From Asparagopsis taxiformis (taxonomy: Eukaryota > Rhodophyta > Florideophyceae > Bonnemaisoniales > Bonnemaisoniaceae), in assembly GCA_030407315.1 (NCBI GenBank), contig JALQPE010002272.1:23635-87634 (forward strand): DNA of 64,000 nucleotides, read 5' to 3'. Below the pieces are notes generated by a model. The model made no database searches, had not been told where the DNA came from, and saw nothing but the letters and a program-made list of their open reading frames with translations. Each line of letters opens with the position of its first letter. Positions within the stretch are counted from its first letter, which is position 1. Shown here in pieces: positions 37,435-64,000 of this stretch. Both the position numbers and the translations under genes were made by a program.

Positions 37435-37730
37435 GGTGAGAGGATGGTCGACCTTTTTGCTGAAGGAGAACACTTACCAGTGTTTTGATACGGGATGTAG
37501 AACTGAGTAGTGGACGTGGGTTTAAATAGGCGATCTACTCGCCTTTTGTGGCTTGGGCAAGGCATGCGATTGGCTGATAGAGATCTGTGCGATGCAGAGA
37601 TTTGAGATGGAAGATGCAGAGAATAGATTGGTCGGGGAGATTGCGTGTGTGGTCGAGGCGGAAAAGATATATGAAAAGTCAGCTCAGAGGCGAGCGCGAA
37701 GTGTGAGACATCGCCACGAGGGATGAAAAG

Positions 37731-42503: not shown

Positions 42504-43240
42504 CACTACGGTGTTGAAAAGGGGGCCTCAGACAGTACTGCGAGACAGTGATTTTTACTGTCTGAGACAGTAAAAATCACTATGCGGCAAATGAAAATTA
42601 ATGCCACACTTGGAGACAGTGATTTGCACTGTCTGGCAGACAGTACGGAACACTGTCTGCAGACAGTAAAAAACACTGTCTCACAGTACTGTCTGAGGCA
42701 GTGAATGGAGACAGTAAAAATTAATGATTTATTCAATAGTTGGATATGATGTAATTTACTGTACTGGGCAGTGTTGGCGGATAGTGTTTTGTATTGGCCA
42801 AGGCAACATGGCCGGATAGTGAAATACGCTGCCTGGGACAATAGATGGAACCAACACGGTGCACTGTCCTGGGCAGTACCTGGAGACAGTGATTTTCACT
42901 GTCCTGGGCAGTACCTGGAGACAGTGATTTTCATTGTCCTGGGCAGTACATGTAGACAGTATTTCGTGCTGCCCTGGGCAGCACCTGTAGACAGTATTTC
43001 GTGCTGCCCTGGGCAGCACCTGTAGACAGTACTTTGTGCTGCCCTGGGCAGCACCTGTAGACAGTACTTTGTGCTGCCCTGGGCAGCACCTGTAGACAGT
43101 ACTTTGTGCTGCCCTGGGCAGCACCTGTAGACAGTACTTTGTGCTGCCCTGGGCAGCACCTGGAGACAGTATTTCGTGCTGCCCTGGGCAGCACCTGGAG
43201 ACAGTAAAAGTAGTGTCCTGATATAGTAAAATTCGGTGTC
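42504..43240 (+). repeat. Candidate transposon end: CACTA terminus and tandem subterminal repeat array
   Basis: CACTACGGTGTTGAAAAG at 42504 starts an abrupt change into ACAGT-rich repeats. From 42530 to 42720, ACAGTG/CACTGT motifs occur in both orientations. From about 42858 to 43205 a 35-bp unit repeats about ten times, drifting from CACTGTCCTGGGCAGTACC to GTGCTGCCCTGGGCAGCAC, a 19-bp palindrome around GACAGTA. Dense subterminal repeats behind a CACTA end are typical of En/Spm-type transposons. The matching right terminus was not found in the window. Confidence 0.55.
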
Positions 43241-45012: not shown

Positions 45013-48000
45013 ATGGCTCCGAGACGGACTCCTATTCGAAAGAAAACCACAAGTCGTAGGACAAAGGCGAGATTCGATTCACTCAATGTGGCCAGTCCCA
45101 GTAAACAGCTTCCTGGGAAACTGCAGGGAGAAATCCGCAGCAGTGATGCAGCCTGCATGAACAAAGAAATCCCGAGAGGTAATGAGCTACGACGTGAGTG
45201 TACCACAGATGACCTATTGGAGTCCCCAATCCCTATGGGTGACACAATAGAAGGTTGTATTGATGTGTACAGCAACAACGATGAAGCTGGAAGTGACATC
45301 TACGTAGCATCGAGCACGCTAATGGAATCGGAAGAAGCAACCGGACGAGGTTCTGATTCCATTTCAACTGGAGGCCCGATAGACCGAAATGCTGGGGATG
45401 AAGCATGTGGTGATTTCAAGGCATTACTACAATGGCCTGCAATGTATGGGGCTCTTCAGCTGAGTGGAACTCAAAGAATGACAAGAGCCCACTATGAAGG
45501 TACCCTGTTCGGAATGAATTTCCGCAGAGATCCAAGTGAGCACGTCCCGTCGGACTCTGTGATGCGACAGAAGATACTACCATTCTTGAGGAAACACTGC
45601 TATGCAAAGAGCTGTGACATCGAGTTTCCGATAGACCTTCGAAAGAGCGGAGCAAGAGCTGCACAGCATCGAGGTGCAGTAGGAACCCGTGGAACAACAG
45701 ATGACAGAGACAATTGTGGAGGAATGGCGAAAGTTCGTATTGTACTCCCAAGCACATGGGCTCTGAAAGATGTCCAGACTCGACCAATCTTTAAAGCATT
45801 CCGCAGTGATGCGAACAATCGAAGCTCGGAAGGAGAAAAATCAACCGCAGAGTGCAGCATTGAAGATTCGTTCATTGCAAAGTGCAGGAGGGGTGTTTTG
45901 AGCGACCCATTCGTTCGCACAGCAGTTGTTCCCATTGACAGCGATGGGAAAAAGGGTTTGAAGCACATTTATGTACCTGATGGAACAGCAATTCGAATCC
46001 GATGTCATCCAGGAGCTCGTCAGGTTGCCGTCATCGAAAGAGCAAAAGGGTTCAGGAAGAATGACAGAGATGGTGGGAAACCGAAGAGGAGAAGAGTGGC
46101 GGTTACGTCGTTGTGGGAACTTCATGCTAGGACCATAGTTACCTATGAGGCTCGACACGACGGTGAGCATGATGTGCATGTCGAAAAATATCTGCAGCCG
46201 CGAATGTCACATCTATTGGAATGGGAGAGGCAGCATGCTCTGCGAGCGATATCGCAATGTGTAATCGGAGCAGGAGCCAAGGGAAAAGGAACACGAGCTG
46301 GGGACGTGATAACCGTTCTATTACCAATTGGAATGGAAGAGGGTGATATTGTTCCACACGTCGTATTGGTGAACAGGTATTTGAAAGAGCAGGTCGGAGA
46401 AGCATCCACCATGTTACTTTGCTTTTCACCGGGCGCGAGCTTTGCTGAAGCCAGAAACCCGCCCGATAGACTAGGAAGCCCCAACTATGAAGAAATTCGT
46501 GTTTCAGGGGTGTTCTCGGATGGTTTCGGAGACCACAGGTCGCAATGGCACCCAGCGTCTCCGCGAGAAGATGCACCATGTTGGGGAAAGCTGGAGGATG
46601 GTCGAAACTACTTTGTTTACCGATTTCTCCTTTACACGGATGACTTTGAACCATTCACAAGCAGGAAGGGAAGTTTTGGTGGATGCTATATGTTACCTCT
46701 CAATCTACCGCCTCGGAAAAGGGGAAGCTACCAAGCGGTTCGAGTGATTGGTTTGCCACCTCCGGGAGTGTCCACAAATTGTGTATTGCGATATATCGTT
46801 CAAGATATAGTGCGAGGAAGCACAGAGGGTTTCCCAACGAAAAATGCAGAGGGAGAAGATGTTGTGGTATTTCTAGACCCAGTGGGGAGCATTGGAGACT
46901 ATCCTGCAGTTTCACATACCCTGGATGTTCTTGGACACACATCAAACTCTCCGTGCCACATCTGCAGTTTCCGCAAATATGACCTGAGCAGTACTGGTGG
47001 CACGAAGAATGCATACACTTCGGTAGTGAACGGGCAAACATCGACGCATGCCAGGAGCAAGTATCGGAATGCATCGACACGTAAGGATGCCACAGAAACC
47101 CAGCTTCGCACTCTCGGACTGGCTGCAGAAGAAGGGGAAGATTTACCATTTCATGTCCTGAGCACTTCCTTGGAAGCAGTGCAGGAAGAAGTACCGAAGA
47201 CGGAAAACGGAGTTTCAGTTGTCCCAGCAATTTTTGACCCGTACCGTTCCGCAGTGATAGCACCTGACCATCTATTGTCTGGACTGGCACAAGATGTACT
47301 GAACGCTTGTATTTCAGCTGCCAGCCCACGAATTCGAGAGGTAGCTGAATTGCAAATTCTGGGCGCTCTGAAGAAGTTCAGGATGGGAAGGCAGAACCGT
47401 TTATTTGGAACCAACAATCTGCTTTCCATGAACATGAGTGACATATTCAGTGTGCTTCTGATAGCACCTATGGCATTCGAAAACGCAGCTCGAATGATGG
47501 ATGGGAAAGGGGAAGGTCATCGTGAAAAATTTGATGGGGCCGTCAAACTAGTAGTGATGTTTCAGAAGCTGGTTTCGTGTATTAGTTTCATGCCCGTATG
47601 GTGGAAAGACGGTCCACATGAAGTAGAGACGGCTGACGGAGAAGGTGGCAGGAATGAATACATTCTGGGAAGAACTGTAGACTACGTGGAGACGTTGAAT
47701 GAGTATTGTCGGAAAGTGAAGGGAGCAGGAGCACATTTGGACAAGCCTAATGTTCATCGTCTTGTCGAGTTTTGTGTTCATACGCTTCCTGCCTACGGCT
47801 CTGTGAAGCACGTGCAGGAGCTTATATTCGAACGGATGCATCAGCCGCTGAAGAAAGGTGTGAGAATGTCCAATCACCAAAGCGAACAGCTTTCAGCGCT
47901 GGAATTAGTTCTTGCGGATGACTGGCAGACGAGAGTGGCCATTGTTTTGCGCGAAATCGGCATGGAGCCACAACATTGGTCCTCGTCCGAATGCTCTCAA

Positions 48001-48816
48001 ATGGTCAACGTTCTTTCACAGGAGCTAGGGAGAGAAATAGATGTGGAAGACGAGGTAGTGAAAAACTGCTTCCAGGAACCGGTTCTCCAGCTTCTCTCCC
48101 AGCGTCGAGGAAAGATATTGTCGGCGGATGGTGAAATTGTGACGTGGAGAGGGCATGGAGGTATATCTATTGACGAGGTCAAGGAGTACATGAATGGAAA
48201 ATGTGATATGGCAGAGGGTGCTGTAGGTGTTTTCAAACGGTTCTTTACCGAAAGGTACGGAAGCGGAACAAGCGGGTGTGGAAAGTATGCCGAATGGGTG
48301 AGAAGAGTTTCTAGAAGCACTACGACAGAGTGGGGAAGGAAAACAGTGCAGAGGTCTGGCTCTCTAGAATCAGGAGCTATCATCCATGCTGTTTGCCCTG
48401 AACAGATGACATGTGAGGATGGTGCAACTTCACAAGCGATTCTGTACCCGGCGTCTCGTCTCACATCAGAGATAATGCGGGGAAGAATTAATTATGAACC
48501 GCGGTTTTTTATTGTTCTAGCGTTCTTTATCCTGAGGAACGAGAGTGCGAGAGATGAGCAAGGTACAGCTTATGGAGTTTGCCTGGGTTTGCAAAAAACT
48601 GATGAAGGAGTGTTCAAGGTCGAAGAGAGGCGACGAACAGTAATTGTGGAGATGAGTGAGGGAGTCACTGAGGTGTTTGGTATGCACTATTGCAATGGGA
48701 GTGTATGCGAATATGATGAGAACATGAGGGAGGTAAGGCACGGACCCGGACTGCTGGAGGGTGGAGAGATATATGCACTATGTAGGCGAGACGGATTTCC
48801 ACCGAGGGCTGCATGA
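45013..48816 (+). CDS. CACTA/Plavaka-like DDE transposase
   Basis: 1,267 aa, intact, from the ATG at 45013. Residues 1-130 are basic then disordered. From about 530 the sequence follows the CACTA (En/Spm) transposase pattern. LLYTDDFEPFTSRKGSFGGC aligns with the first catalytic Asp region (D-G-F-x-P-F). YMLPLNLPP and GDYPAVSHTLDVLGHTS resemble the second Asp region (DFPA), followed immediately by CHICSFRK, the small zinc-binding CxxC. APDHLLSGLAQDVL and LSALELVLADDW lie further on, where the final acidic residue is expected. Related fungal Plavaka transposases look the same. It would cut and paste the element bounded by the array at 42.5 kb. An intact reading frame of this length suggests recent activity. 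The exact superfamily (CACTA against KDZ) is inferred from motifs only. Confidence 0.75.
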   Translation: MAPRRTPIRKKTTSRRTKARFDSLNVASPSKQLPGKLQGEIRSSDAACMNKEIPRGNELRRECTTDDLLESPIPMGDTIEGCIDVYSNNDEAGSDIYVASSTLMESEEATGRGSDSISTGGPIDRNAGDEACGDFKALLQWPAMYGALQLSGTQRMTRAHYEGTLFGMNFRRDPSEHVPSDSVMRQKILPFLRKHCYAKSCDIEFPIDLRKSGARAAQHRGAVGTRGTTDDRDNCGGMAKVRIVLPSTWALKDVQTRPIFKAFRSDANNRSSEGEKSTAECSIEDSFIAKCRRGVLSDPFVRTAVVPIDSDGKKGLKHIYVPDGTAIRIRCHPGARQVAVIERAKGFRKNDRDGGKPKRRRVAVTSLWELHARTIVTYEARHDGEHDVHVEKYLQPRMSHLLEWERQHALRAISQCVIGAGAKGKGTRAGDVITVLLPIGMEEGDIVPHVVLVNRYLKEQVGEASTMLLCFSPGASFAEARNPPDRLGSPNYEEIRVSGVFSDGFGDHRSQWHPASPREDAPCWGKLEDGRNYFVYRFLLYTDDFEPFTSRKGSFGGCYMLPLNLPPRKRGSYQAVRVIGLPPPGVSTNCVLRYIVQDIVRGSTEGFPTKNAEGEDVVVFLDPVGSIGDYPAVSHTLDVLGHTSNSPCHICSFRKYDLSSTGGTKNAYTSVVNGQTSTHARSKYRNASTRKDATETQLRTLGLAAEEGEDLPFHVLSTSLEAVQEEVPKTENGVSVVPAIFDPYRSAVIAPDHLLSGLAQDVLNACISAASPRIREVAELQILGALKKFRMGRQNRLFGTNNLLSMNMSDIFSVLLIAPMAFENAARMMDGKGEGHREKFDGAVKLVVMFQKLVSCISFMPVWWKDGPHEVETADGEGGRNEYILGRTVDYVETLNEYCRKVKGAGAHLDKPNVHRLVEFCVHTLPAYGSVKHVQELIFERMHQPLKKGVRMSNHQSEQLSALELVLADDWQTRVAIVLREIGMEPQHWSSSECSQMVNVLSQELGREIDVEDEVVKNCFQEPVLQLLSQRRGKILSADGEIVTWRGHGGISIDEVKEYMNGKCDMAEGAVGVFKRFFTERYGSGTSGCGKYAEWVRRVSRSTTTEWGRKTVQRSGSLESGAIIHAVCPEQMTCEDGATSQAILYPASRLTSEIMRGRINYEPRFFIVLAFFILRNESARDEQGTAYGVCLGLQKTDEGVFKVEERRRTVIVEMSEGVTEVFGMHYCNGSVCEYDENMREVRHGPGLLEGGEIYALCRRDGFPPRAA

Positions 48817-48935: not shown

Positions 48936-49333
48936 GCTTACAGCAAAGTCATCGTTACGATGACTTTGCTGTAAGAAAACGTTTCCATTACAGTGGCCAA
49001 GAATTTTTTACCGGGTAAAAAAATCGTGGCAGCTGTAATGATTTGCTTTCTTACAGCAAAGTCATCGTAACGATGACTTTGCTGTAAGGAACCGTTTCCT
49101 TGCAGTGGCCGAAGAATTTTTTACCGGGTAAAAAATCAGCAAGAAATTTTACCGGGTAAAAAAATTGTGGCCGCTGTAATGATTTGCTGTAAGAAAACGT
49201 TTCATTACAGCGGCCACAATTTTTTTACCCGGTAAAGAAATCATGGCTGCTGTAATGTTTTCTTTTCTTACAGCAAAGTCATCGTAACGATGACTTTGCT
49301 GTAAGAAAACGTTTCATTACAGCAAATTCATCG
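48936..49333. repeat. Palindrome cluster 1
   Basis: Three copies of a 38-bp palindrome (half-site CAGCAAAGTCATCG with a TTACAG edge) at about 48937, 49050 and 49267. They alternate with a second palindrome built on TTTACCCGGTAAA inside CAGTGGCC...GGCC(A/G)CTG contexts. The cluster starts 120 bp after the transposase stop. Unlike the other clusters it lacks the outer GCTTACAG...GTTTACC arms. Confidence 0.85.
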
Positions 49334-50004: not shown

Positions 50005-53000
50005 ATGTCTTGTCCGGACAGTATAAGAGAGGAAGCTGAGAGACGGGAAGCGCACTCGGAGGTACCACAATTGTGGATTTCATCGTCTACACAACATTTG
50101 AACAGAGAACCGATTGAACGAACTGAGATTGCAGGGATTACAATGGGAGACAATAGTATCATGAATACTACAGCGGAGAAGAGCAATTCTCCTTCTGCTG
50201 AAGAGAAAAGCATCACTATTGCTCAGTACAGCTCTTCTAAAGTGCAAGTTGATCCTCGCAAAGTGAAATTTCCGACAGTGACCTCCCGTTTGGTGCGACC
50301 GGGTCGTGTAAACGAACTGGCCAGCATTTTCATGGATAGAGGTTTCTCTACCACTGGAACTATGATTACAGTCTGCAAAATGGAAGATAACGAAGGAGAC
50401 GAGTTTTACTGCATCGATGGCTCTCATCGCATAGCTGCTCTGCAACTATGCCTGGAGAAGTACTCAGGAAAGAACAGGGATTCCTTGGAATTGGTTTGGG
50501 TACAACAGTTGATTGCGCCGAACGGGCGTCTAATTTTCGATGCGCTGGAGGTTCTGAAACTGTCTCTCGAAGCCAATATACAAACTCACGATGTCGCTTC
50601 TGTGAGCATTGCCGACAATGTCTGTGCGGTCATAGAGTTTCTCAGGTTTTCCAACCAGATGGATCTTCCTGTTGTCCGGCTTATTCCTATTCTGAAAGAA
50701 GTGAGCTATATTCTGCCGTCCGACAGGAACCGTTCGGAGAACTCGTATAGGCAGTACATCAACATTGCGAAGGGGTTCAATCGCACAGACAGCGTTGCTT
50801 TCGTGTACTGGAGCTCTATCCCTAGCGTTTACAATGCTTTGGATAGGAACAGAGAAATCGAGGATGCAAGAACCGAGGGAAGAGATCCGGACTTTTCTCG
50901 AATTGACTCTGCCGATATGTACGGGTGCGTGCTCGATCTTGTCAATAACGCAATATTCCGCAATGGCACGGACGGACGCGGGACGCGCGATAAGGAGTGG
51001 TTCCAGTGGTTTGTGCTCGAGATGACAGCGTCGTGGACAAGGATGAGGAGGAAGAGAGGACTTGTCAGAAATATCGGAAGCGGAAGTCCGTTCACGATGC
51101 GCACTTGGCTACTGGCTCTGTTGGCCATCTATGATATGGCAGAGGTCGTCCGCAAGTGGTTGAACTCTGCAACGATGGAGGAATTCGTGCGAACGGATTT
51201 GGCAGCAGAAAACGCGAAGGAGGTCGGGGATAATGATCATCGCATTGGAGAGCGCATTGTATTCGTCCTTGTCGACTTTCATGACGACGTGGTAGACAGT
51301 AGCAGTCTGAGAACCAAGAACGGGATGTTTACAAACAGTTTTTACGACAAACTGGAATATGCTACCGGGACAAAGGCAATGCAGGAGACGAAAGCGGAGG
51401 AGGAGAGGGAACGGAATCGCATGACCCCCGGAGAAATAGAAAAAGCACTTGTTGATGGCGCCAAAGCAGAAGACGAAGAAGCACCTACTGCCGCAGAACA
51501 GGGAAATAATTCTACAGAGAAGGAAACTGTGGAAACTTCTGGTCCTGTTCAAGCAGAAGAAGGAGTATCTGCCGAAGCCCAAGTAGAGCAGGAAGTTTCT
51601 GCTGTTGTGGAGGAAGAACAGGAAATTACTCCAAATGTGGTGGCTGAAGAAGTGATTCCTGCTGTCGCGACGAAAGCAATAGAAGAGGCACCTCTGAGCA
51701 CCCCGAAAGAAGCAGAAGACCGTCCTGCCGCAGCAAAAGAGGGAGGACAGGAACGTCCTGCCACGCGTCTTGCAGCAGCTGAGAAGAGGGAAGCAGAACG
51801 TCTTGCTGTTCTCCAAAAAGAACAGGAACGTCTTTCAGCTTCAAGGGCAGAGCGGGAAAGTCGTGCCAGGGATAATTCGCCGGGAAGGATTGTCAGAGAA
51901 GATCTTCCTCAGGGAAGGAAACAAAGCGGCGATACGCAAAGTCTGGATATCAACTTGGACAATAGTGGTCGCATGGACATAGACACGCCTGGACAACAAG
52001 CTGGAGATGCGCAGAACCGCTCTGTGATATTGAAACTTCGAATCAGGACACCAGAAACTTACAGCACTAGCCCGGCCGAAGTGGACAAGGAGAATTCGGG
52101 AAGAAGCAGGAGTTCTGGTGGAAGCGGCGATGAAAACGAGTCCAGGTTGCATAAGAAGCGAAGAAGGGAAGATACTAGCGCGAAGTTTTCTGAGCCCAAT
52201 ACGCCGGATGACAACATTGAGATTGGGCCTCCCCGGGAAAAGAAGAGTAGAGTCAATGCAAGAAAACGAACGACTGGAGAAGAAGCACCACTCTTCACTG
52301 ACGAGCAAGAAAACTCCCTTCCAGACCGCACATTCGCAGAGGACATACCTGAGAAGCTGCCTTTATGCGTTCCTTCCAACTCGAGAATGAAGTATTATAT
52401 CACAGAAGAAGACATTGATACAATCCGGACGGAGATAATGGAAGCAGCTGCAGGCTACTCTACTTTGGTATGTCCCCTCGGTTCTTGTGAAAGCCAACAA
52501 TACTTCAGCTACCAGAGAAGAATGATCGACGAGCTTGGTTACGTGGTGTTGCAAGACATTTTCTCTTCTACTACAGTGGGAGCAGCTACGCACGAGTTAT
52601 TCACACAGATGGCCAGCACATTCCAAGGTACTACAAGTGGCTCAAGTGCAAGTCAGAAGAACCCGTGGAAACCACTTCGACCGAAAGACAGCACTGGTGT
52701 ATTCAAGACGGACCGGAAAAGCATCTGCGATGACCTTGAGCAAGAAAGCGCGCGGCAGTACAGGAACAAGCTGATTCTGGAGCTAGGTAAGGCGATTTGT
52801 GCGGAGAACCTGAAGCTCGGGTTTGGAAGAGAAGAAGCGGTGGTCTTTCCAGAAACGGGTCTTCGTCTGATTTTGACCGCAGAAGGTAGTCAGGAGCAAC
52901 TTATGCATACCGATGTTCCCGTCCGTGAGGGAACTGGAACTGGTCCTCTCAACTCGCCATCATATTTCATGATGGCTGCTGGTGCGGATGGGTTCATCAT

Positions 53001-53265
53001 TCGTATCGCCAAGTTCAGCCATGTGTGCCTAAGTCATCCAGCGAAAGACAAGTACCGCGTGCCAGTGACGAACGTGCGCATCCCACCGTATTCCCTGCTT
53101 GTATGCCGAACGGACGTGTATCACGGAGGAATGGGATTCGCGGAGGGTCGTTCTTCGGTGAGGTACCAGCATCCTATCCGGTCCCATCTATCACTGCGAA
53201 CTTCCAGGGAGAAGTTGCTACAGCCTCCCTTCAATGTCAACTACTGGGAGCGTTTAGATATCTGA
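50005..53265 (+). CDS. ParB-like domain fused to a 2-oxoglutarate/Fe(II) dioxygenase
   Basis: 1,086 aa, intact. A second in-frame ATG at residue 47 (MGDNSIMN) is the alternative start. A ParB/Srx-like domain covers about 80-155, with RLVRPGRVNELASIF and the signature CIDGSHRIAAL (DGSHR 138-142). A helical region follows, then at about 470-780 a charged, low-complexity linker with basic nuclear-localisation-type clusters (HKKRRRED, KKSRVNARKR). The C-terminal ~300 residues start SRMKYYITEEDI and carry a double-stranded beta-helix signature: MHTDV (H968, D970), then DVYHGGMGF (H1040) and Arg 9-13 residues later, the HxD...H...R set that binds iron and 2-oxoglutarate. The DNA-binding-type front end and nuclear signals suggest oxidation of DNA or chromatin. 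TET/JBP-type dioxygenases are known from fungal DNA transposons. Substrate unknown. Confidence 0.8.
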   Translation: MSCPDSIREEAERREAHSEVPQLWISSSTQHLNREPIERTEIAGITMGDNSIMNTTAEKSNSPSAEEKSITIAQYSSSKVQVDPRKVKFPTVTSRLVRPGRVNELASIFMDRGFSTTGTMITVCKMEDNEGDEFYCIDGSHRIAALQLCLEKYSGKNRDSLELVWVQQLIAPNGRLIFDALEVLKLSLEANIQTHDVASVSIADNVCAVIEFLRFSNQMDLPVVRLIPILKEVSYILPSDRNRSENSYRQYINIAKGFNRTDSVAFVYWSSIPSVYNALDRNREIEDARTEGRDPDFSRIDSADMYGCVLDLVNNAIFRNGTDGRGTRDKEWFQWFVLEMTASWTRMRRKRGLVRNIGSGSPFTMRTWLLALLAIYDMAEVVRKWLNSATMEEFVRTDLAAENAKEVGDNDHRIGERIVFVLVDFHDDVVDSSSLRTKNGMFTNSFYDKLEYATGTKAMQETKAEEERERNRMTPGEIEKALVDGAKAEDEEAPTAAEQGNNSTEKETVETSGPVQAEEGVSAEAQVEQEVSAVVEEEQEITPNVVAEEVIPAVATKAIEEAPLSTPKEAEDRPAAAKEGGQERPATRLAAAEKREAERLAVLQKEQERLSASRAERESRARDNSPGRIVREDLPQGRKQSGDTQSLDINLDNSGRMDIDTPGQQAGDAQNRSVILKLRIRTPETYSTSPAEVDKENSGRSRSSGGSGDENESRLHKKRRREDTSAKFSEPNTPDDNIEIGPPREKKSRVNARKRTTGEEAPLFTDEQENSLPDRTFAEDIPEKLPLCVPSNSRMKYYITEEDIDTIRTEIMEAAAGYSTLVCPLGSCESQQYFSYQRRMIDELGYVVLQDIFSSTTVGAATHELFTQMASTFQGTTSGSSASQKNPWKPLRPKDSTGVFKTDRKSICDDLEQESARQYRNKLILELGKAICAENLKLGFGREEAVVFPETGLRLILTAEGSQEQLMHTDVPVREGTGTGPLNSPSYFMMAAGADGFIIRIAKFSHVCLSHPAKDKYRVPVTNVRIPPYSLLVCRTDVYHGGMGFAEGRSSVRYQHPIRSHLSLRTSREKLLQPPFNVNYWERLDI

Positions 53266-53485
53266 TGAAATTAGTTCTTAATAGCATTCTATGGCAGGCA
53301 TCAAGGCCGCCTTCAAGTAAACGATGAAAGTTAGGCTAGTACATGACGTTTGCGTATGTAGACGGGTCAGGAGATATACAATACTCAATTTAATATGAGA
53401 AGGGGAGGAAACTATGGTGGGCACTACTAGAATAGAACAAGGTAATATCGCAGTCGTCTTTGGTTACAACATTGAGGTGAGGAAG

Positions 53486-53780
53486 GCTTACAGATGATGC
53501 AGTTTCGCTGGGGTGCTGACAGCAAAGTCATCGTTACGATGACTTTGCTGTAATGATTTGATTTCTTACAGCAAAGTCATCGTAACGATGACTTTGCTGT
53601 AAGAAATCAAATCATTACAGCGGCCACAATTTTTTACCGGGTAAAAAATTCTTGCTGATTTTTTTACCCGGTAAAATTTTCTCACCACTGTAATCAAACC
53701 TTTCCTTACAGCAAAGTCATCGTAACGATGACTTTGCTGTAAGCATCCCGGGTAAACGGCTTCGGCTGTAAGCGGTTGGG
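53486..53780. repeat. Palindrome cluster 2
   Basis: Three 38-bp palindromes at about 53518, 53565 and 53704, plus two TTTACCCGGTAAA-type palindromes. Its own ends are inverted: left GCTTACAG-N23-T(T/G)ACAGCAAAG and right the complement, with GTTTACC inside. About 100 bp to its right (GGGAGTTTCGTCC...GAGAAGGGAAGTG) recur inverted to the left of cluster 4. Confidence 0.85.
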
Positions 53781-54309: not shown

Positions 54310-54634
54310 GCTTACAGATGGAGCAGTTTACCAGGGATGCTTACAGCAAAGTCATCGTTACGATGACTTTGCTGTAAGGAAAGGTTTCATTACAGTGGCC
54401 ATGATTTCTTTACCCGGTAAAAAAATTCCTGGCCGCTGTAATGAAAACGTTTTCTTACAGCAAAGTCATCGTAACGATGACTTTGCTGTCAGGAAACAAA
54501 ACATTACAGTGGCCATGATTTCTTTACCCGGTAAAAAAATTCCTGGCCTCTGTAATGAAACGTTTCCTTACAGCAAAGTCATCGTAACGATGGCTTTGCT
54601 GTAAGGATCCTTGGTAAACTGCCTGAGCTGTAAT
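54310..54634. repeat. Palindrome cluster 3
   Basis: 325 bp with three palindromes (half-site CAGCAAAGTCATCG; the last has one change to CAGCAAAGCCATCG) and two TTTACCCGGTAAA-type palindromes. It is bounded by inverted ends carrying GCTTACAG and AGTTTACCA. It lies 200 bp upstream of the broken ParB-dioxygenase paralogue. Confidence 0.85.
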
Positions 54635-54837
54635 TGTCGTACAACGAAAAGTGATGTGGAAGGTTCGGATTGGTCAACCGCTGAATATCATTACCAGGGT
54701 GTATACTAATAGGAATATGTCAGTCTCTAAGTTTCGCCTATCTTACTCAGCTTACGCAGCAAAACAGCTTGTCGTTCAGATCTTCTTCTCTCTTTCTCAA
54801 TCTTTCACTCTTCGTTTGTCAATCACTCACCAAAGCA

Positions 54838-57800
54838 ATGGCTCAACAATCCCCCAACGCTTTCGACCGCCAGGTGCGCTCTGCCAGCCGCCGTGACAAC
54901 GATTCTCCCACTCCTTCTCCCTCTCCTTCTCCTCTCCTTCTCCTTCTCTGGCCCCCCCTGTCCCCATGGACGTTTGCGAAGCTGCTGCAGCGCTGACCCA
55001 GCTCAGCCCAGCACCTAAGCCCGTCCCCTCCCCCCTTCCGCTTCCGATCCCGCGGTTGTCCCGACAATCGACGCTGGCGTTCCCGCAACTCCGCTTCCGG
55101 CTCAATCTGCCGAAGCGGCGCCAGCCGTCGAGGGATCTGGTGCTCCTCTGCCTAGCTCGCCTGCTCCGGACATGATCATCGCGTCCGGCAGCGACTTGGC
55201 AGAGGATGCGGAGAAGGTCGATGATCACAACGCTCGTGACATCGTACCGAACAAGCCTCTCCGCAGCACCAGGCTGGCCTACCCTGGCACAGTGCCCATC
55301 CCGGTGGATGTGGACTACGACATAAGTCCGGAGAGCTGCCGAAACATTCCAGTCTTCATTTCCCCTCTGGATGTTTCTCCTCCGGCAGTCGTGTCCAGGG
55401 TGGTCAGGCCGCATCGCGTTGATGAGTTGAAGAAAACGTTTCTCACTCAGGGATTTTCCGTGATTGCTTCACGCGTGTCCGTCTGCGAGGTGATTGATTC
55501 CAATGCAAAAGTACGACTGCAATATGTCGATGGATCTCACCGAGTGACCGCGTTGAAGGCCATTCTCGAGTCGGCTGGACCTGCTCCTGCGAAGGACAGT
55601 CCAGAGTGGGAGGAGTTTGTCAAGTCTGACATCTACCGTCGATTTGGAACTATTCCAGTCGACTTTCTCCTCCCACCGACTCGGCTTGGCCGGGATGTCT
55701 TCTGCTCCGAAGAAGTACTCCCGCTTTCACGGCTGATGAACTTCCACACCCACAATGTCAGCGAGGTAACAGTTGCTGACAATGTGTGCTCTGTGATGGA
55801 GTTCATCAATATCCACCGCCTGGGAAAGAAGAAGATCGAGCCGACCGTTCAATACATTAAAGAACGGAAAGCGCTGAGCTGGATTCGTCCGAGACAGCTC
55901 ATGCGCTACGTCTCGATCGCGCGAGGGTTCAAGACCATTGAAAGCCCTGCTTTCAAATACTGGTCGAGCATCCCGAACAGGCCGGAGTTCGTTCAGTTTT
56001 CTTCGACGAGGATCTGGCTGGGTGTACGGTGAACTTGTTGTTCAATGGGTCGTTCAGGAGTGCTCCGGATGTGCAGAAGTGTTTCATCCTGGAGATGACG
56101 GCGCGCTACACTTGTAGCCGTCGGTCGGCCGGGCTGAAACCGTACTCGGTTGGTACCATTGGGCAGGAATGGATTGCTGGTTTGTTGGAAATCTTCGGGT
56201 ACGTGAAGGAGGTGGCCGAGTACTGGAACGTGTCGGATGTGTTGAGGATGCTGGATGGGTCAATTCCCAGCGGGGTGACCCGAGCAAGAGCTTCGACATT
56301 CGCTCGCGCGTTGTCGAAGTTCTTGCTCAGATGGTCCCCAAGAAGGGGTGCTGGGCAGACTTCCGTCCCAAGGAAGGCCCCCCCGATGGTTACAAGTCGG
56401 AAACATTTTTCCCCGTAAGAAGTCTGTCTTCGGGAAGGACGCCAGGAAAATGCTCCTGCGCGTCACTGGGTACCGCGACATGATTATGCGGAAACGCTTT
56501 CACGCGATGTACCCAGACATCCCACATGCTGCGCTCCCAGCCACATGTGGTGATGATGCCCCCATCCCTTCCTCTTCCAATTCCTTGCCCATCCCTTCAT
56601 CCTCCATTCCTTTGCCCCCACCACCTCAACTGGAATCTTCCAGCAATTCCGAGGTTGCCCCTGTTCCTGTCTCTACCCCTGCCGTGTCGGCATCCTCCCC
56701 TGCGGTGACCCCGGTCAAGCCGACTGCGCGTGGTCCCCAGGATGGCAGCGAACGCTCTGGTCCAGTTTCCCACGCCGGGACTGGTACCCCCAACCGTCCT
56801 GTCCAAGCCGCGCAGGAGCAGGTCTCACCGGCTTCGCAGCCTGAGCCTGCGACTCCGGCTGCCGAGCAGCACCCTGCTGCTCCGGCCCCCGCTGTCGAAG
56901 CTTCCCGTTCTGCATCTGCTAGCAGTTCGGGAAGCTCCAGCGATGACAGTTTCGTCCCTTCACCATCCGGTGGGGTTGGACAGAAGACGGTTGCGAGGAT
57001 TTCGACGGAGGGCCCTACTCCCGAGAATGTGGTCGAGGGCAGCAGTGCGAAGGGCGGTGCAGATCCTGACGAAGATGTCATTGAAGTCAGTGATTCTGCA
57101 CCGCCCGGAGTGGAAACTTCTGGGAGGAAAGTGATGCCCAGAAGGAGTACCCGCCTGCAAGCGAGTCGTTCCGGTCGTGGTGGAACGGCGGGTGGTGCTG
57201 TGGAGGTCGTCGAGCTGGAGAGCGCCCCCGAGGATGCGGGTGAAAACTCCATCCTCGGGAAGCGTAACTTGGAAGCGCTTCTGCGACGCCCGAGCCTTCT
57301 ACCAAAAAGAGAAGGCTCGGTGAGACTTCATCAAAGTCGTCGTCAAAGAAATCCAAGTCGGCTTCCCGAGGTCGCTCTCGGGAGCCGGTTCTCCAGTTCG
57401 ACGACGCCCAGGAGAATCCCATTCCCGACAGTATCGTCGATGAGAATGTGGCCGCCGTTCTCCCCAGCGCAATTGCGTCTGGCAGCCGGATGAAGTACTA
57501 TATGGAAAGTACGACGGTGGAGACGGTTCGGGCGGAAATGAGGGCGGCAGCATTCCAGGCAGCTGCATCGCCGGGTGCTGAGGATACGGTGGTGGAACAG
57601 TACTTTGCGGTGAAGCGGGCATTGCTGGAAAACTTGGGGGTTATTGTTATGGAAGGCTTGTTGGCATCGTCCACGGCTGGGAATGCGACGCATGAGTTGT
57701 TCGGTCACTTCGCTAGGCAGTTCCCGCTGGTTGAGGAGGTTGAAAAACCCTCCCAGCAGTCTGATTCTAACGATGACGACAGGGAGCCACAGGACGAGCC

Positions 57801-58477
57801 GCCAGCTTTCGCAAAGCCCGGCTTCGATCCTTCGCCGTGGCAGTTCATCCACAACGTGGGTGATGCGAAGGACCGCATCGATGGTGGTCGTGGGCGCCTC
57901 TCTCTGCCGCGGCGTGAGTTGTGCGACAAGTTGGAGGAGGGGAATTTGGAGATGTATAAGAACAAGTTGGTGGCAGAGCTTGCTCTTGGTGTTTGTGCGG
58001 AGTTCTTGAAGTTGGGAATGGAGGGTGAGGATCCTGTCTTCTTCCCGAAGACAGGATTGCGGCTGCTTCTTACAGCAGATGGGGCTGCGGACCAGGATGG
58101 GCACACGGACTTCAAGGTATCGACGAATAGTGTTGGAAGTCCTACCGAGTCTCCATCATATTTCATGATGTCGAGCGGAGCCGATGGGTTCTCTATAGTA
58201 GCTGCCCCTTATAGTCATGTATGCCTGGCCAATCCGGACGCCGATATGTGGAAGGTTCCCATTCATAGGCTTTTGTGCCACCCTATTCCGTATTGGTTGG
58301 TCGCGGTGACCTTTACCATTACGGGGTCGGCTTCAGCGAGGAGATCTTCCTGCGGGCGAAAAGTTAGTCTATGGCCTGCCCACGCGCGGCCACATCTACT
58401 TGAAGACGGAGAAGGACGTCCTCACGGACCACATCCACACCGTCGAATATTACAAGTACGATAGGAGCAATAGATAG
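54838..58477 (+). pseudogene. Second ParB-dioxygenase gene, broken by several frameshifts
   Basis: It begins at MAQQSPNAFDRQV (ATG at 54838) and ends at 58477. In turn the frames carry a Pro-rich leader, the ParB-like domain (RVVRPHRVDELKKTF, YVDGSHRVTALKAIL), the helical region (YWSSIPNRPEF, CFILEMTARYT), a Ser/Pro/Ala-rich linker and the dioxygenase domain. That domain has SRMKYYMEST, GHTDF, NPDADMWKVPIH, DLYHYGVGF and RGHIYLKTEKD. The order and motifs equal the intact gene upstream, but at least five frame changes are needed (near 54955, 56000, 56350, 57295, 58275 and 58360). HTD and the distal His are still present. It is GC-richer than the intact paralogue, so the two are not a recent duplicate. 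Either decayed or carrying sequence errors. Confidence 0.8.
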
Positions 58478-58950
58478 CATATCAGAAGTATTAAAACCTA
58501 TACTACTGTTCCCTGCTATAAAGTTCTGTCTTTCTCATCTCAACATTGTTACCTTAGCCCATTTTCAGTTCTCATCTATACATCTGTCCTTCATCTCATA
58601 GTTTAGTGCTACTCAGCAGATTGCTTGCTACTTTTTAATATTAGTCTACAACGTTGTATGATTTTACTAGCTAGGCCGTAGGGGGAGACTAGTTTCAACC
58701 CTTGACAACGCGCAGATTTCGACTACGAGAGCCGTCACTGTGATAAATTATTTGTAGAATTTTCGTCTATCTTCCCACCTACACTAGGCTACCTATATAT
58801 ATACAGGGTATAACCTGAACAGAGACCACGTGAGGTAAAATACTCCTGAGAGCTGCTCACAGCCGTACAGACCTTTGCTGAGCAATTTTCCCGACTTCAC
58901 ACTTCGCTTCTTACCTTTACCAAGATGGGAGAAGGACGAAACTCCCTGCT
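58478..58950. other. Gap between the broken ParB-dioxygenase gene and cluster 4
   Basis: About 470 bp without a gene. The right part (from about 58870) is the inverted counterpart of the sequence following cluster 2. A TATATATATA run is at about 58793. Confidence 0.55.
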
Positions 58951-59250
58951 GCTTACAGCCGAAGCCGTTTACCAGGGTTCCTTACAGTGGCCAAAGAATT
59001 TTTTACCGGGTAAAAAATCAGCAAGAAATTTTACCGGGTAAAAAATTGTGGCCGCTGTAATGATTTGCTTTCTTACAGCAAAGTCATCGTTACGATGACT
59101 TTGCTGTAAGAAAACGTTTCATTACAGCGGCCACAATTTTTTTACCCGGTAAAGAAATCATGGCTGCTGTAATGATTTGTTTTCTTACAGCAAAGTCATC
59201 GTAACGATGACTTTGCTGTCAGCATCCCCGGTAAACGGCCCGCACTGTAA
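58951..59250. repeat. Palindrome cluster 4
   Basis: 300 bp with two palindromes (about 59076 and 59186) and three TTTACC-type palindromes. In reverse complement its order and outer arm (GGGGATGCTGACAGCAAAG) match cluster 2 (GGGGTGCTGACAGCAAAG), including the shared TGACAG variant. This suggests that clusters 2 and 4 are the inverted ends of one element. Confidence 0.85.
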
Positions 59251-59525
59251 TGGGGTGACTGCTTCTCCTACATCGCTCTCTTACTGGTGTTCTACATGCT
59301 GCGTTGCTACACAATTTCGCACTCACATCTTTCTAGTTTCTCTCCTTTTCGTATCCATAGGTATAGCAGTAGAAAAGTGGATAGTTTGCACTCCAGGCCG
59401 CAGATGCCTTCCTGCAGTCATGTCACGATTGTTGTAGTGTAGTCTATAATATCTAGCGCTCTTGGAAGATGATGCACAGTCTATTGTCTCTGCAATGCGT
59501 GTTTACTCAAATCTATCAAAGTAGC

Positions 59526-60158
59526 TCAGTTAGCTGGCCAATATTTTCTACCATAGTCAGCAAATATCTCCTCATCAGCTTCAACGTCTCTGGTCAGAAC
59601 GACCTTGACAGCATGGGGATTCTTGATATTTGAAGCAAAGTCCGGTTTGTCTATGGCATCGCCTTGTCGAAACTCGGCTGACTGTGTTCGACTCACCTCG
59701 GTCGCTTTCTCCGTTCCGTCAATGACCCGACAATCATTGAGGTAGCTGGTACAATTATAGACCGCTGGAACGAGCCAGACCTTCCGAACAGGTGCACCCC
59801 TCCCTATGTACGTGGTTTCCAATTCCATGTTGTAGTCCTGGAACCTCTCTCCTGTGCACCCAAATCCTTCCGGGCCGTACATCACTGATCTCTGCGGTTC
59901 CGAGTCTCGAATCTTCGCATAGAAAATCGTCCCGTTGTACCAGCCAATGACCGTCCCCTTCTTCAGTTTCTTCGCCGCGAATACGCCAAACCCACCACCT
60001 CTTACCTCCGATTGCGAAACATAGACACCGTAGAATGCGGCATCAGCAGCCAGAATCGCGTCCGGGTCTATGCTCCAAAACGAGTGCATGTCCTCGGCCG
60101 GCCACTGGTCCATAGGCACCCCGCTCAATCTGTGAAGCATAGACCCGTCCTTCTTCAT
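59526..60158 (-). CDS. SET-domain protein
   Basis: 210 aa from the first ATG (60158). The frame opens at a GTG at 60200 that overlaps the stop codon of the ParB-methyltransferase by two bases. SET motifs are clear: GGGFGVFAAKKLKKGTVIGWYNG (N-terminal SAM loop, in two blocks), YNCTSYLNDCR in place of NHSCxPN, and EEIFADYGRKYWPAN as the catalytic DYG/Tyr end. There are no pre- or post-SET cysteines, as in some viral and PR-type SET proteins. It probably methylates lysine in a histone or other protein. It may be expressed from the same transcript as the methyltransferase upstream of it, an unusual arrangement for a nuclear genome. Confidence 0.82.
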   Translation of the reverse strand: MKKDGSMLHRLSGVPMDQWPAEDMHSFWSIDPDAILAADAAFYGVYVSQSEVRGGGFGVFAAKKLKKGTVIGWYNGTIFYAKIRDSEPQRSVMYGPEGFGCTGERFQDYNMELETTYIGRGAPVRKVWLVPAVYNCTSYLNDCRVIDGTEKATEVSRTQSAEFRQGDAIDKPDFASNIKNPHAVKVVLTRDVEADEEIFADYGRKYWPAN

Positions 60159-60196
60159 TGACGCAACGAACACAAGCAGATGGTTCGGCAATGCTG

Positions 60197-62990
60197 TCAC
60201 AGCAGGTAAACTTCTGGTGCATCTGAGATGTGCTTCTGACGAAGCCTTGGAGCTTTTCCTGTGACCGGTACCGACTCGTCCCCAAGAATACTCTCCACCT
60301 CACGCTGCAAGATCCCCCCATATCGCCCGGCTTTCACCTCACTGACGAAAGCATGCAGTATCCACTCCTGCGATGCATCGTGGCACCTTTTTTCCTTCTC
60401 ACACCCAATGAACCGACGATACGTACCATCCCTCAACGTCATACACGCTATGGCTGTGCTGTATGTTCCCGAGAAGAAATCCATCACGATATCGTTCTGC
60501 TTCGAAAATCGTTCCAGAAGCTCACGAAGAGTGGTCAACGCCTTCTGCTCATGGCGCAGTCGGTTGTTCTGCCCATCGTATTGAGCTTCACCAGCCGACA
60601 ACCTCGGAACGTTGTCAATCGCGTTGGTGAACCCAGGGTGCCTCGATATGTCCGGATTGTGCAACCTGTAATCCACCATATCGTATGCAGCCATACCCTT
60701 CCCCCGCTTATACGCATGGATAACGAAATCGTGCATATTATGCAGTGTGCACGTTTTCGTCGATGGATTGGACGTAAAGCTGTGTGGTCGGCGAGATAGC
60801 ACGACTGGAACACTGTCCACAATCATCTTGCCAGGCTCGGCATTTCTGATTGCATCCATCCATGCCACGAGTTGGCGCACGCTGGAATAGATTAGAGCAT
60901 GACCGCCAGGCCGAAGAACTCGAACTATTTCACACGCAACACTCGCCAACTCTTCCGGCTCCAGAATATCGTACTCCGAGTTTTCTCTGCCGCCTTCCCG
61001 CCTCGTGTTGAATGGAGGATCAGTGAGCACAAGCTGAACACTGTCCTCCAACACGCCATCTTCCAGGAAACTAATTTTGTCCTCCACCTCTTTGGCTACA
61101 TCAGTGGCGTCACAATTCACAGTGTGAATGTAACGCCCCATCACAGCTTCCAGCTTGGTGACATATTCCGGCTTGGATTCCTTTCCGACGTCAACGAGCG
61201 GTGCTTCTGTAGGCGATACAGTGTCAACCTCCATAGCGTCATCCTCGGCCGCACCTTCTCTTGTTGCTGTTTCGCTAGCAACCGCCGCATTATCGTCCTC
61301 TCCACCACCGCGCTCCAGCCTAGCCTTCTTCCTCTGTGGCTCCAGACTATCCTCTTCTATATCCTCGCTGCCATTGTTTGGCACTGCTGCGGATATTTCC
61401 ATCTGCGCAGGTGCACCTTCAAGGATGCCAGGCTCGGGCGTATCCTCAAGACTGTGCAACTCATCCATGGTCAGAGGAAGCTTTCGTTGCTCTCGGGTTC
61501 GCAATAACCAAGCCTTCAGCCTCCTCTGACCATCCAGGGCATGAGACGTGTTCAACTTGGCTCGCATGAACGAGTTCAAGCCGAACTTGTCAGGAGTGTC
61601 GAAAAGCAAGGCTCGAAGTCTCTGCATCAGCTGACCACGCTCGGCGAACACATTCACCTCAGTGACACATTGGCGTATCGACAGCAGGAAGGCGCTTGTC
61701 AATGATCGCAGCCTTGCATCCACAGCCACTGGAAGGTCGGCACAGAACCCGTTTTCACTGTCTACAGTTTTCGGGACAATGGTCAGGTTTTTCCGATGCT
61801 CCTCGACCGCGCAGCCATCAGACCGATTCGGGAGTGACCTGAAGCAAAGGCTCGCAGGATCGAATACCATGAACGGCCAGCACATCGATTCAACATCCTC
61901 ATACCCCAACACTCTTGCCCCGGTATCCCACGCAGCTAACACACGGTCGACAACAAATCCAAGCTGGTTGGCTTGCGCACTGGATGTTGCAATTCCAACC
62001 ATTCCACCACCACCAATGGCCCCGGATGTGGCTCTGGCCCGCCTAGATGGCACACTGCCCATCTCCTTACTGCGAATAGCCAAGATACACTGGCACATCA
62101 TAACCATCAGCCTCCTGAACCGCTTCTGGCTAGCCTGCAAAGAATCTTGCATGTCGGATGTAGCGCCGTCTAGAAAGTACCTGCTCGAAAGCAGTTCGCG
62201 GTTCAGTGGAGAGGACAATTCTCCGCGGGGTGTCTTGCCAAACATTTCGACGGCACGAGAACTAGTCACCCCCACCTGTTTCGGAAACTCAACCATCCTC
62301 GGAGAATCACCCATCTCTGCATTGAGTCCCCATGCATGACAAAACATTTGCCACAGACGCAAATCAATCGCACTCGAATCTTCTGCTCGGTGATACGGCC
62401 GAAGCACAGCCAGGATAGACATGCATGAGCTGTACTGCGGTTTACCACTCAGGCTTGAAGCAATTTGGCCGCTTGGATCGCAGGACTTGATCCAGCCCAA
62501 CACATCGGCCATCCTCACAGACGAAATATGAGCGTACTTGTCCTTTCCGTTTTGGACCCAGTACTCGTCTCTGAGATCAACGGCGATCATCAGATACTCA
62601 ACAAACATCATGCGCCTTTGCAGGCCTGCAATGTCGTTGGATGTCGTCGCTCTCACACGGTCCAGCACAACAGCAGTACTGCTGTTGGTGTCCGCCACGA
62701 TAGACTCTTCTCGCATAGGAATCGTAACGCCAGGAGGAAAGACGCCCTTCTCCATTCCACGTACAATTGCCATGCAGCGGTGCGCTCCATCCAATATCTC
62801 CAGAACGCCTTCTCGAAACCTGCCAGTCACGGGGAGCTGTGTCATAACCGCTGTTGCGAATGCTCTCCATGAGCGCTTCCACATGACTTGCATCAACATC
62901 GCGAATCGATACGAATTTGCTGACTTGATTGGGGTCGATGAACACCCATCCGTCGTGCTTTTCACCGTGATTGTGGAACGTTCCTTCCAT
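60197..62990 (-). CDS. ParB-like domain fused to a beta-class DNA amino-methyltransferase, one frameshift
   Basis: About 930 aa from the ATG at 62990. The first ~50 codons (WVFIDPNQVSKFVSIRDVDA) are in one frame. At the C4 run (62831-62834) the reading shifts by one, continuing PVTGRFREGVLEILDGAHRC, so the two parts rebuild a ParB-like domain with DGAHR as signature. A long helical middle part includes an NLS-like PQRKKARLE. The C-terminal methyltransferase has motif IV TDPPF (61010-61021) before motif I VMDFFSGTYSTA and FIGCEKE, the order of beta-class N6-adenine/N4-cytosine enzymes of bacterial origin. DPPF suggests adenine, but cytosine N4 is not excluded. It lies upstream of, and overlaps, the SET gene. 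The single shift may be an error, since the rest is intact over 2.6 kb. Confidence 0.82.
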
Positions 62991-63440
62991 GGCGAACAAA
63001 GGTAGAGGTTTTTAAGAAAGGGATAGTTGGTTGCTGCTTGACCAGGGTGGCGCAAAGCAGAAGTTGGTTGTTTAAAACAAAGTGTCAGCGAGTGGTAGCA
63101 CTTCGGTGGCTGTTTCCTTTCCACCCCTGTCCGAACCTTTACAAGATAACTACATCGACTGTTAGCTCAATAATCAATGTAATACTAAAGTAATACTCAA
63201 AATATTTTTCCATGCAATTTATTGGGCCCCGTAACATCTCTAAGCGTATCTTTGTAGTCCAATCGTATGCATCCGACATTCACTTCTAGAACGATTATTC
63301 ACATCAAATTTTATGCTGCAATCAGTTCATGGCAGACATCATCCACACTGACGTGTCAATTTTGTCAATTGTCCATTCTATTTCTACACCACCTAAACAT
63401 CTCTTCGGACCTTTTCCTCCTAGTATATACTACTCTTTAG
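62991..63440. other. Promoter-side gap of the ParB-methyltransferase gene
   Basis: No supportable gene. It separates the minus-strand methyltransferase from a plus-strand partial frame, so it is likely a divergent promoter region. Confidence 0.4.
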
Positions 63441-63881
63441 CAGAAGGTAACGGTTAGGCTTTCACTAATACAACAATTCTATCCCATAGCTATCCCAACA
63501 TTCCTTCCTCTCGCTCCAAACGACGTTATAGAAGTTCAATGGGAACTTCGGCCGTTTGGGAGGAAACGAAAAATTGTGTGGTGGTCTGCAATCGTCAAGG
63601 AAATTACTCAGGTCAAGACCGAAACAGACCCATTCTTCCATGCATTGCTCGAATACAAAGCTGAAATATGGTTTCGACTCTACCCTTCTCAAGTCAAGAT
63701 TTCAGATCGTAACGAGCTCGTCGACAAGGATTCCGGAAGGGTTCTCCCGTGGCGAAGTGGTGAGCTTCGCAGTATGGACTCACCTGCATCCCCAGCAGAG
63801 AGAGACCCGGACTACGGCATTGACCACATCGCTCACACCGCCACCGCGGCATCCTTCAAGATTGCACTGCGGATCAAATGA
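63441..63881 (+). CDS. Partial hypothetical protein, possible Tudor-like domain
   Basis: An open frame without an ATG, starting after a TAG at 63438 and a CAG that could be a 3' splice site. It reads PNDVIEVQWELRPFGRKRKI, then WWSAIVKEI, then EYKAEIWFRLYPSQVKI. The alternation of WW-x-A-x-V and a later Y-K-A-x-x-x-F resembles Tudor/agenet-type reader folds, but the match is weak. It ends at 63881, overlapping (ATGA) an ATG at 63878 whose frame runs open to the window edge (MKKTIAEMLARLEKLES). The two may be one gene split by a frameshift or intron. Confidence 0.35.
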   Translation, partial: QKVTVRLSLIQQFYPIAIPTFLPLAPNDVIEVQWELRPFGRKRKIVWWSAIVKEITQVKTETDPFFHALLEYKAEIWFRLYPSQVKISDRNELVDKDSGRVLPWRSGELRSMDSPASPAERDPDYGIDHIAHTATAASFKIALRIK

Positions 63882-64000
63882 AGAAGACCATAGCAGAAAT
63901 GCTGGCAAGATTGGAAAAGCTGGAGTCAGCTGCCAAACATCCTCTTTCCCCCTCCATTCGATTCCAACAGCTCCATGACCTCCTCTGCTCTGACTGTATT
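63878..64000 (+). CDS. Partial open frame running off the window
   Basis: 41 codons without a stop, beginning MKKTIAEMLARLEKLES, helix-prone and Lys/Glu-rich. It overlaps the preceding frame by four bases (ATGA). Too short to name; it could continue the preceding protein in another frame. Confidence 0.25.
   Translation, partial: MKKTIAEMLARLEKLESAAKHPLSPSIRFQQLHDLLCSDCI

Follow-up and report, generated by a model that had tools for sequence, protein, structure and literature searches.

We describe here a gene fusion, and the mobile element that contains it, in a stretch of 64,000 nucleotides from the red alga Asparagopsis taxiformis (contig JALQPE010002272.1, positions 23,635 to 87,634 of the forward strand), which is called the window throughout. 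The gene is a single open reading frame (ORF) on the plus strand at 50005..53265 of the window, and its product of 1,086 amino acids (aa) would join a ParB-like domain to a C-terminal domain with an HxD...H...R residue set, like that of the dioxygenases which depend on 2-oxoglutarate and iron (2OG-Fe(II)), an assignment made from the ORF itself, BLAST, profiles and invariant residues. According to our analysis of its copies, the gene is cargo of a CACTA-type DNA transposon of 26-27 kb. The reading that we favour, and to which we give a probability of about one half, is that of an autonomous CACTA-type cut-and-paste transposon equipped with ParB-targeted epigenetic enzymes, a writer as well as erasers or oxidisers.

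The transposon, its copies and its transposase

An earlier note, made on this DNA from its letters, had placed the gene in a mobile island, and this island can now be defined as a transposon with termini and full copies. The window carries the left 21.5 kb of it, beginning with the left terminus CACTACGGTGTTGAAAAGGGGG (42504..42525, plus strand), the point at which homology to the copies C632, C337 and C44 starts and beyond which the flanks are unrelated. Contig and window both stop inside the element at 64000, so that an ORF of 508 aa and the right terminus fall outside. The three copies with two ends measure 26,511 bp (C632), 26,406 bp (C337, whose contig stops at the right end of the transposon) and 27,188 bp (C44), and in all of them the termini CACTACGGTGTTGA...TCAACACCGTAGTG are sharp and the flanks unrelated. 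Repeat analysis places subterminal repeats, consisting of GACAGT/ACTGTC units and a 35-bp tandem array, at 42530..43210 of the window; these units number 32-37 in the first ~1 kb of a full copy, 16-17 in the end bins (last 0.4-1.2 kb) and 9-10 elsewhere (n=3). The flank to the left of the transposon (window 42145-42502, compared with L003 2258-2615) is a repeat itself, at 93% identity.

The element is abundant. With up to 3 mismatches allowed, and with reversed patterns giving 0 in each case as a control, the genome contains the left end (a 45-bp pattern) 1,027 times, the right end 697 times and the gene's HxD site 437 times; were all 437 gene copies full-length they would total ~11.6 Mb of 141.5 Mb, a figure which is arithmetic and not a measurement. 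Because ends outnumber gene copies, the surplus suggests internally deleted derivatives or broken contigs. On contig C104 two left ends, at 90699 and 95003, lie in the same direction 4.3 kb apart, which is a hint of short derivatives of the element. The copies were exposed by a palindrome array of the window (54310..54640) used as a DNA probe, for which all 40 scored candidates, the best 40 of 2,212 first-look candidates, were exact 341-bp copies, and each of 20 fetched loci of 2.8-3.3 kb was 98.5-99.8% identical to the window, the match being split in two for five of these loci. An isolated host gene is ruled out by the 437 genome copies of the site, and contamination as the origin of the ORF by the unrelated flanks, on several contigs, of the copies that were read. 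Among the contigs examined only C1526 (L001) looks bacterial; it bears ParA/ParB-like plasmid partition genes and is probably contamination or derives from an associated bacterium. Of 13 matches to phycobilisome proteins in the genome, 11 fall on a single large contig, C469, which along with the size of the genome and its eukaryotic type agrees with a red alga.

The transposase candidate is a protein of 1,267 aa (45013..48816, plus strand), which we regard from blastp, hhalign and motif evidence as a distant relative of Transposase_21, the CACTA transposase family. The ORF has no match in Pfam, and its kinship was found within the same genome, where blastp aligned it over 235 aa with a Pfam-confirmed Transposase_21 protein (C582) at E 5e-9; a second Transposase_21 protein of the genome gave E 0.24. 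By hhalign its 580-residue core scored 57.7, compared with a maximum of 25.3 in 20 shuffles and with 16.1 and 19.4 for control pieces taken from the fusion protein and from the methyltransferase protein described below. A C(2)C motif is present as CHIC at residue 648, after GDYPA at 628, the catalytic D and E being assigned by resemblance. Together with terminal inverted repeats that start with CACTA and end with TAGTG, and with subterminal repeats at both ends, this related transposase makes up the traits of the CACTA/EnSpm (CMC) class that the element possesses. Two findings weigh against this side of our interpretation. An H(3-4)H between the second D and the last E is stated, in passages of PMC12730594, as a motif of CACTA/CMC transposases, and it is absent after residue 628 of the transposase, where the place aligned by eye reads HRLVE; for this reason we name the element CACTA-type and not a strict member of CACTA/EnSpm. 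Nor was a consistent target-site duplication found, a 3-bp repeat being present in none of the four two-ended copies compared (C632, C44, C74 and C168, the last two with ends paired by distance alone, and C74 with a 2-bp match).

The fusion family, its companions and the palindrome arrays

The frame of the fusion gene contains no internal stop, as the earlier note had it, and is unbroken in all four compared copies (window, C632, C337 and C44); a protein identical to it, P0002, is encoded on a 4,228-bp contig of the European Nucleotide Archive (ENA). The ParB-like domain covers approximately residues 80-214 (50242..50647, plus strand) and includes the signature IDGSHRIAAL, with DGSHR near residue 138, while the dioxygenase-like domain (52342..53262, plus strand; fold unconfirmed) contains H968, D970 and H1040 at the positions claimed for them and also R1059, which follows H1040 by 19 residues and is the likely 2OG-binding arginine. 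The basic clusters of nuclear-localisation type that had been noted between the domains do exist (RRKR at 348, KKRRR at 717, RKR at 753); only the last two are in the linker, RRKR being situated in the N-terminal half.

The fusion was first seen as a single one, and it is real, yet the element has two such genes, in addition to a fusion of a ParB-like domain with methyltransferase and SET parts and to palindrome arrays. The second gene (54838..58477, plus strand, limits set by eye; 1,215 aa) is intact in C632 and C337; in the copies of the window and of C44 small indels shift its frame. Its product, a paralogue 34-37% identical to the first protein across the longer aligned stretches, shares with it and with P0003 the same order of a ParB-like N-terminus, a charged linker and an HxD...H...RxH C-terminus. 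P0003 (851 aa, on a 3,766-bp contig of another dataset) is a full-length fusion that matches the first protein at both ends (C-terminal 29%, E 2e-26; N-terminal 30%, E 1e-10). As the order recurs in proteins that are 34-37% and 29-30% identical, the architecture is more than chance.

When P0003 was used as a query against the genome (best 53 of 4,028 candidates), 84 matches were obtained, none above 42% identity, so that P0003 itself is not among them. All 17 of its N-terminal matches are accompanied by a C-terminal match on the same contig, both showing one and the same open-frame length (1,047-1,115 aa), and these 17 places, read as single ORFs, are predicted further diverged members of the fusion family. 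Diverged ORFs of the ParB-like/dioxygenase-like type, ~1,050-1,184 aa long, are seen on many contigs and suggest other large elements of this kind. Protein searches gave few relatives: words from the first 500 residues recovered only the protein itself among the best 8,000 candidates scored, and the C-terminal region recovered the protein and P0003 (1,958 candidates). Sequence searches of the protein (P0001) against Pfam, PDB, PHROG and NCBIfam gave weak matches or none, with two weak unrelated ones in Pfam at E<=1, and an Rfam search gave no match.

That the N-terminal domain belongs to the ParB superfamily, as had been proposed, is supported by a controlled comparison of profiles in addition to the BLAST match to P0003. 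The N-termini of the dioxygenase-like proteins (the two paralogues and P0003) scored 67.4 by hhalign against a set of six ParB proteins, with at most 20.4 in 50 column shuffles and at most 16.5 for six unrelated pieces of the element, and scored 44.0 against the N-terminus of the methyltransferase-SET protein. This latter N-terminus scored 66.6 against the ParB set, a comparison that is partly circular and not independent because five of the six references had been picked via likeness to it; a similarity search with it returned 8 records, phage ParB proteins among them, the best at E 2e-3 and the rest at 0.07-0.8. The domains display the DGxHRxxA form of the GxxRxxA motif, namely DGSHRIAA, DGSHRVTA, DGMHRLTA and DGAHRCMA.

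For the C-terminal domain the claimed HxD...H...R set has been borne out in every one of five diverged members (the two paralogues, P0003, L058 and L060), whose alignment has 21 invariant columns including HxD, the distal H and the R, the other four members being 33-48% identical to the first row. Two further sequences, L059, which closely resembles the second paralogue, and L061, a near neighbour of L058, were left out of this alignment. When the 306-aa domain was shuffled 2,000 times, the pattern HxD-x50-90-H-x10-22-RxH turned up in 4 of the shuffled sequences.

A number of results count against these domain assignments and have to be set beside them. Pfam ParB_N detects none of the ParB-like domains of the element, its sole match in the genome being on the bacterial-looking contig, and no ParB family of Pfam matched P0001; BLAST between the ParB-like parts of the fusion protein and of the methyltransferase protein reached E 6 only, though the two are colinear. 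In none of the five members did the C-terminal domain match a Pfam family at E<=10, by which search, of limited sensitivity, no TET/JBP likeness was found either, and a search of PDB with their profile yielded four implausible chains (E 0.58-1.6). AlphaFold models lack confidence, with a mean predicted local distance difference test score (pLDDT) of 33 for the full protein, too low for a confident ParB fold, and of 32 for the C-terminal domain. A double-stranded beta-helix thus has no usable backing from Pfam, PDB or AlphaFold, and it is by the conservation of the motif that the domain is called dioxygenase-like.

The third ParB-like protein is encoded on the minus strand at 59526..62990 (upper coordinate approximate) and is, according to Pfam, profiles and the copies, a fusion of 1,155 aa with an N6_N4 DNA methyltransferase (DPPF) and a SET domain. 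Its frame is intact in C632, C337 and C44 and is split in the window by small indels into the ORFs 60197-63124 and 59526-60200. In the intact frame PF01555 is matched at E 2.3e-16 (60.9 bits, cut-off 26.7) and PF00856, the SET family, at E 4.2e-6 (27.6 bits, cut-off 22.4), activity of both being a prediction. DPPF at residue 658 precedes DFFSGT at 838; DPPF before DFFSG is the order of beta-class methyltransferases, and DPPF instead of SPPY presumably favours N6-adenine. An identical protein (P0004) is present on a 6,935-bp ENA contig, and the protein search returned only the protein itself among the best 8,000 candidates scored.

In the full copies these genes amount, with the transposase and two ORFs of 453 and 508 aa, to six ORFs, all intact in C632 and C337 and five of them in C44, where the second ParB-like gene is frame-shifted. 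The beginning of the 453-aa ORF lies at 63500..64000 of the window (plus strand, start approximate, by comparison with copies) and is disrupted there; in C632 it lies at 57006-58367, and the 508-aa ORF at 58643-60169. The family search revealed no clear family for the first 331 aa of the former or for the whole of the latter; near its start the 508-aa ORF has weak matches to helical or coiled-coil-type families. Compared with another copy, the window copy has small indels in three of the genes, namely the second ParB-like gene, the one for the methyltransferase-SET protein and, at its beginning, the 453-aa ORF, the first two genes being clean; the indels may reflect decay, or an error of assembly close to where the contig stops.

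Between these genes repeat analysis found four palindrome arrays in the window, at 48937..49323 (37-bp P1 palindromes and P2 cores TTTACCSGGTAAA), 53485..53779, 54310..54640 (the probe mentioned above) and 58973..59250, of which the fourth is bigger and has additional units in the full-length copies that were read. The P1 palindrome TTACAGCAAAGTCATCGTWACGATGACTTTGCTGTAA, with up to 3 mismatches, occurs 18, 17 and 18 times per full copy and the P2 core, with up to 1 mismatch, 16-17 times (n=3), all of them in the gaps that separate the first four genes of the element, from the transposase to the methyltransferase-SET gene. Neither was found in 23.5, 6.0 and 12.9 kb of neighbouring DNA (~42 kb), and all 11 P1 matches of the window are inside the element, chance expectation being none. 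Clustering of palindromes beside ParB-like proteins suggests that they are parS-like targets of the ParB-like domains, as in the ParB-parS partition systems, where a ParB-like domain and clustered palindromes likewise go together. Several features set the element apart from those systems: parS is 16 bp and the palindromes, at 37 bp, are unlike it, no ParA partner was recognised among the ORFs, and palindrome binding is putative. Against such targeting it may also be said that the palindromes could instead be hairpin, termination or transposase sites.

Elsewhere in the window we observed pieces of a Copia-type retrotransposon at 40-2321 (a 527-aa ORF with an integrase core and RVT_2, then a 230-aa ORF), a 638-aa gene of flavin amine-oxidase type at 35557-37473 (minus strand) beside a repeat-rich region, and at 38647-39324 (minus strand) a C-terminal helicase piece of 225 aa, Pif1/UvrD-like, that may be left over from a Helitron.

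Proposed function and its rivals

The catalysis, the targeting and the benefit to the element that we infer may be pictured as follows. Through their ParB-like domains the three proteins would be recruited to the element, the simplest target being its palindrome arrays, which would act like parS. Once there, the methyltransferase-SET protein would mark DNA at N6-adenine (or N4-cytosine) and would mark histones as well; both dioxygenase-like proteins would oxidise or remove a mark of host or element origin. The outcome might be that copies stay transcribable, or that the timing of movement is set, which would amount to a self-carried system of writer and eraser for escape from, or control of, silencing. 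One may go further and imagine a complete self-addressed epigenetic circuit, in which a single type of ParB-like domain, borne by the DNA N-methyltransferase/histone methyltransferase and, twice, by a new family of dioxygenases, reads the element's own parS-like palindromes, and in which the element sets and erases its marks without recourse to the host. This bolder version we offer tentatively, as possible with the odds against it; if true, host-independent self-marking would explain the burst to hundreds of copies.

Other explanations depart from this picture at different points. The ParB-like domain might be an NTPase, a nuclease or a regulatory part, as in DndB and other conflict proteins of the ParB/Srx superfamily, and the C-terminus might hydroxylate a protein, for instance histones or the transposase, in which case chromatin or the element's own proteins, and not palindrome DNA, would be modified. 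We think this unlikely on balance, with a real chance of being right: over the ParB-like region of the fusion protein Pfam offers just two weak matches, GmrSD_N at E 0.066 and DndB at E 0.11, neither of which reaches its cut-off, and the SET domain encoded by this element is a pointer to protein substrates, whereas a ParB-like domain common to three enzymes with differing catalytic parts fits a shared targeting role, and the element's own palindrome arrays count against a domain that does not target. Proteins of this superfamily are discussed as nucleases or NTPases of DNA-modification systems in part of PMC10853773. It is unlikely, too, that the C-terminal domain is something other than an Fe(II)/2OG oxygenase, its HxD...H...R binding another metal or being structural. 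The failures of Pfam, PDB and AlphaFold reported above speak for such a view; the invariance of HxD, distal H and R among the five diverged members speaks against it, as does the rarity of the pattern among shuffles, and the order and spacing of these residues are what we take to be usual for 2OG oxygenases.

The dioxygenase-like and methyltransferase-SET genes could also be captured passengers of no use to the element, and PMC6431247 does indicate, in the part concerned with large transposons, that captured gene pieces can ride in them. We judge this quite improbable, for the frames are intact in separate copies, the catalytic residues are invariant between ~34%-identical paralogues and in further families, and 437 copies of one site persist. 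An integrated virus or a recent bacterial import, instead of a DNA transposon, seems to us hardly credible. The methyltransferase part does resemble phage enzymes (phrog_67, E 2.9e-23) and ParB-like domains are found in phages, but such an origin is opposed by the CACTA ends, which lie dispersed in their hundreds, by the subterminal repeats and by the kinship of the transposase with Transposase_21, and pattern-based scans for the dioxygenase-like part confirmed no relative among 2 and 34 matches in viral_contigs or among 71 matches in genome_contigs (prokaryotic). An integrated virus in particular was rejected in view of the CACTA ends and of the six main ORFs of the three copies, among which no virion gene was recognised (two ORFs being without known family).

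Relation to known systems and significance

The nearest parallel suggested for the gene, that of fungal transposons carrying TET dioxygenases, is supported by our analysis and is extended by the DNA methyltransferase-SET protein of the same element. According to sections of PMC12730594, TET/JBP dioxygenases are carried by fungal DNA transposons (Plavaka, EnSpm, KDZ, Helitron and others), and the resemblance is that of a DNA transposon, EnSpm and Plavaka types included, with an HxD/E...H dioxygenase thought to counter silencing. Our element differs in that no Pfam-level TET/JBP likeness was found, in the fusion with a ParB-like domain, in the presence of two such genes and in the methyltransferase-SET companion; the main text of PMC12730594 on TET/JBP transposons contains no mention of ParB. 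According to the same source, HarbingerS and MuDR transposons of oomycetes carry SET genes. A transposon-borne domain of histone-methyltransferase type is what they share with our element, which differs from them in that SET is built into a single protein together with a ParB-like domain and a DNA methyltransferase.

Among red algae, Chondrus has enlarged EnSpm families (cited in PMC6431247), and our element resembles these as a red-algal CACTA transposon enlarged by extra ORFs; it differs in its 26-27 kb and six ORFs, a difference to be read with the reservation that Chondrus is represented here by the citing paper and that the ORF content may overlap. Phage and bacterial systems of ParB and N6/N4 methyltransferases (phrog_67, PF01555) have in common with the element the DGxHR signature and the order of DPPF before DFFSG, while the element is a eukaryotic transposon with an added SET domain and a parallel dioxygenase-like fusion. 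Our literature search, covering titles and abstract openings of the top-ranked matches, showed no description of a ParB-dioxygenase fusion or of a ParB-methyltransferase-SET transposon, which is not proof of absence.

Single epigenetic enzymes on transposons are already known, SET, TET/JBP and anti-silencing factors among them, as portions of PMC12730594 recount. An element in which a DNA methyltransferase-SET fusion and two dioxygenase-like proteins each carry a ParB-like domain of bacterial type, and which has private palindrome arrays too, would be a self-contained system of writer and eraser. Should the enzymes prove active, the element could be the editor of its own epigenetic state, and it becomes a testable question whether a mobile element can set its own DNA and chromatin marks, beyond dodging the silencing imposed by the host. 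The element is also a candidate source of N6-methyladenine or N4-methylcytosine, and of their oxidation, in this alga, and its ParB-like domains and palindromes may constitute a targeting module that acts on eukaryotic chromatin.

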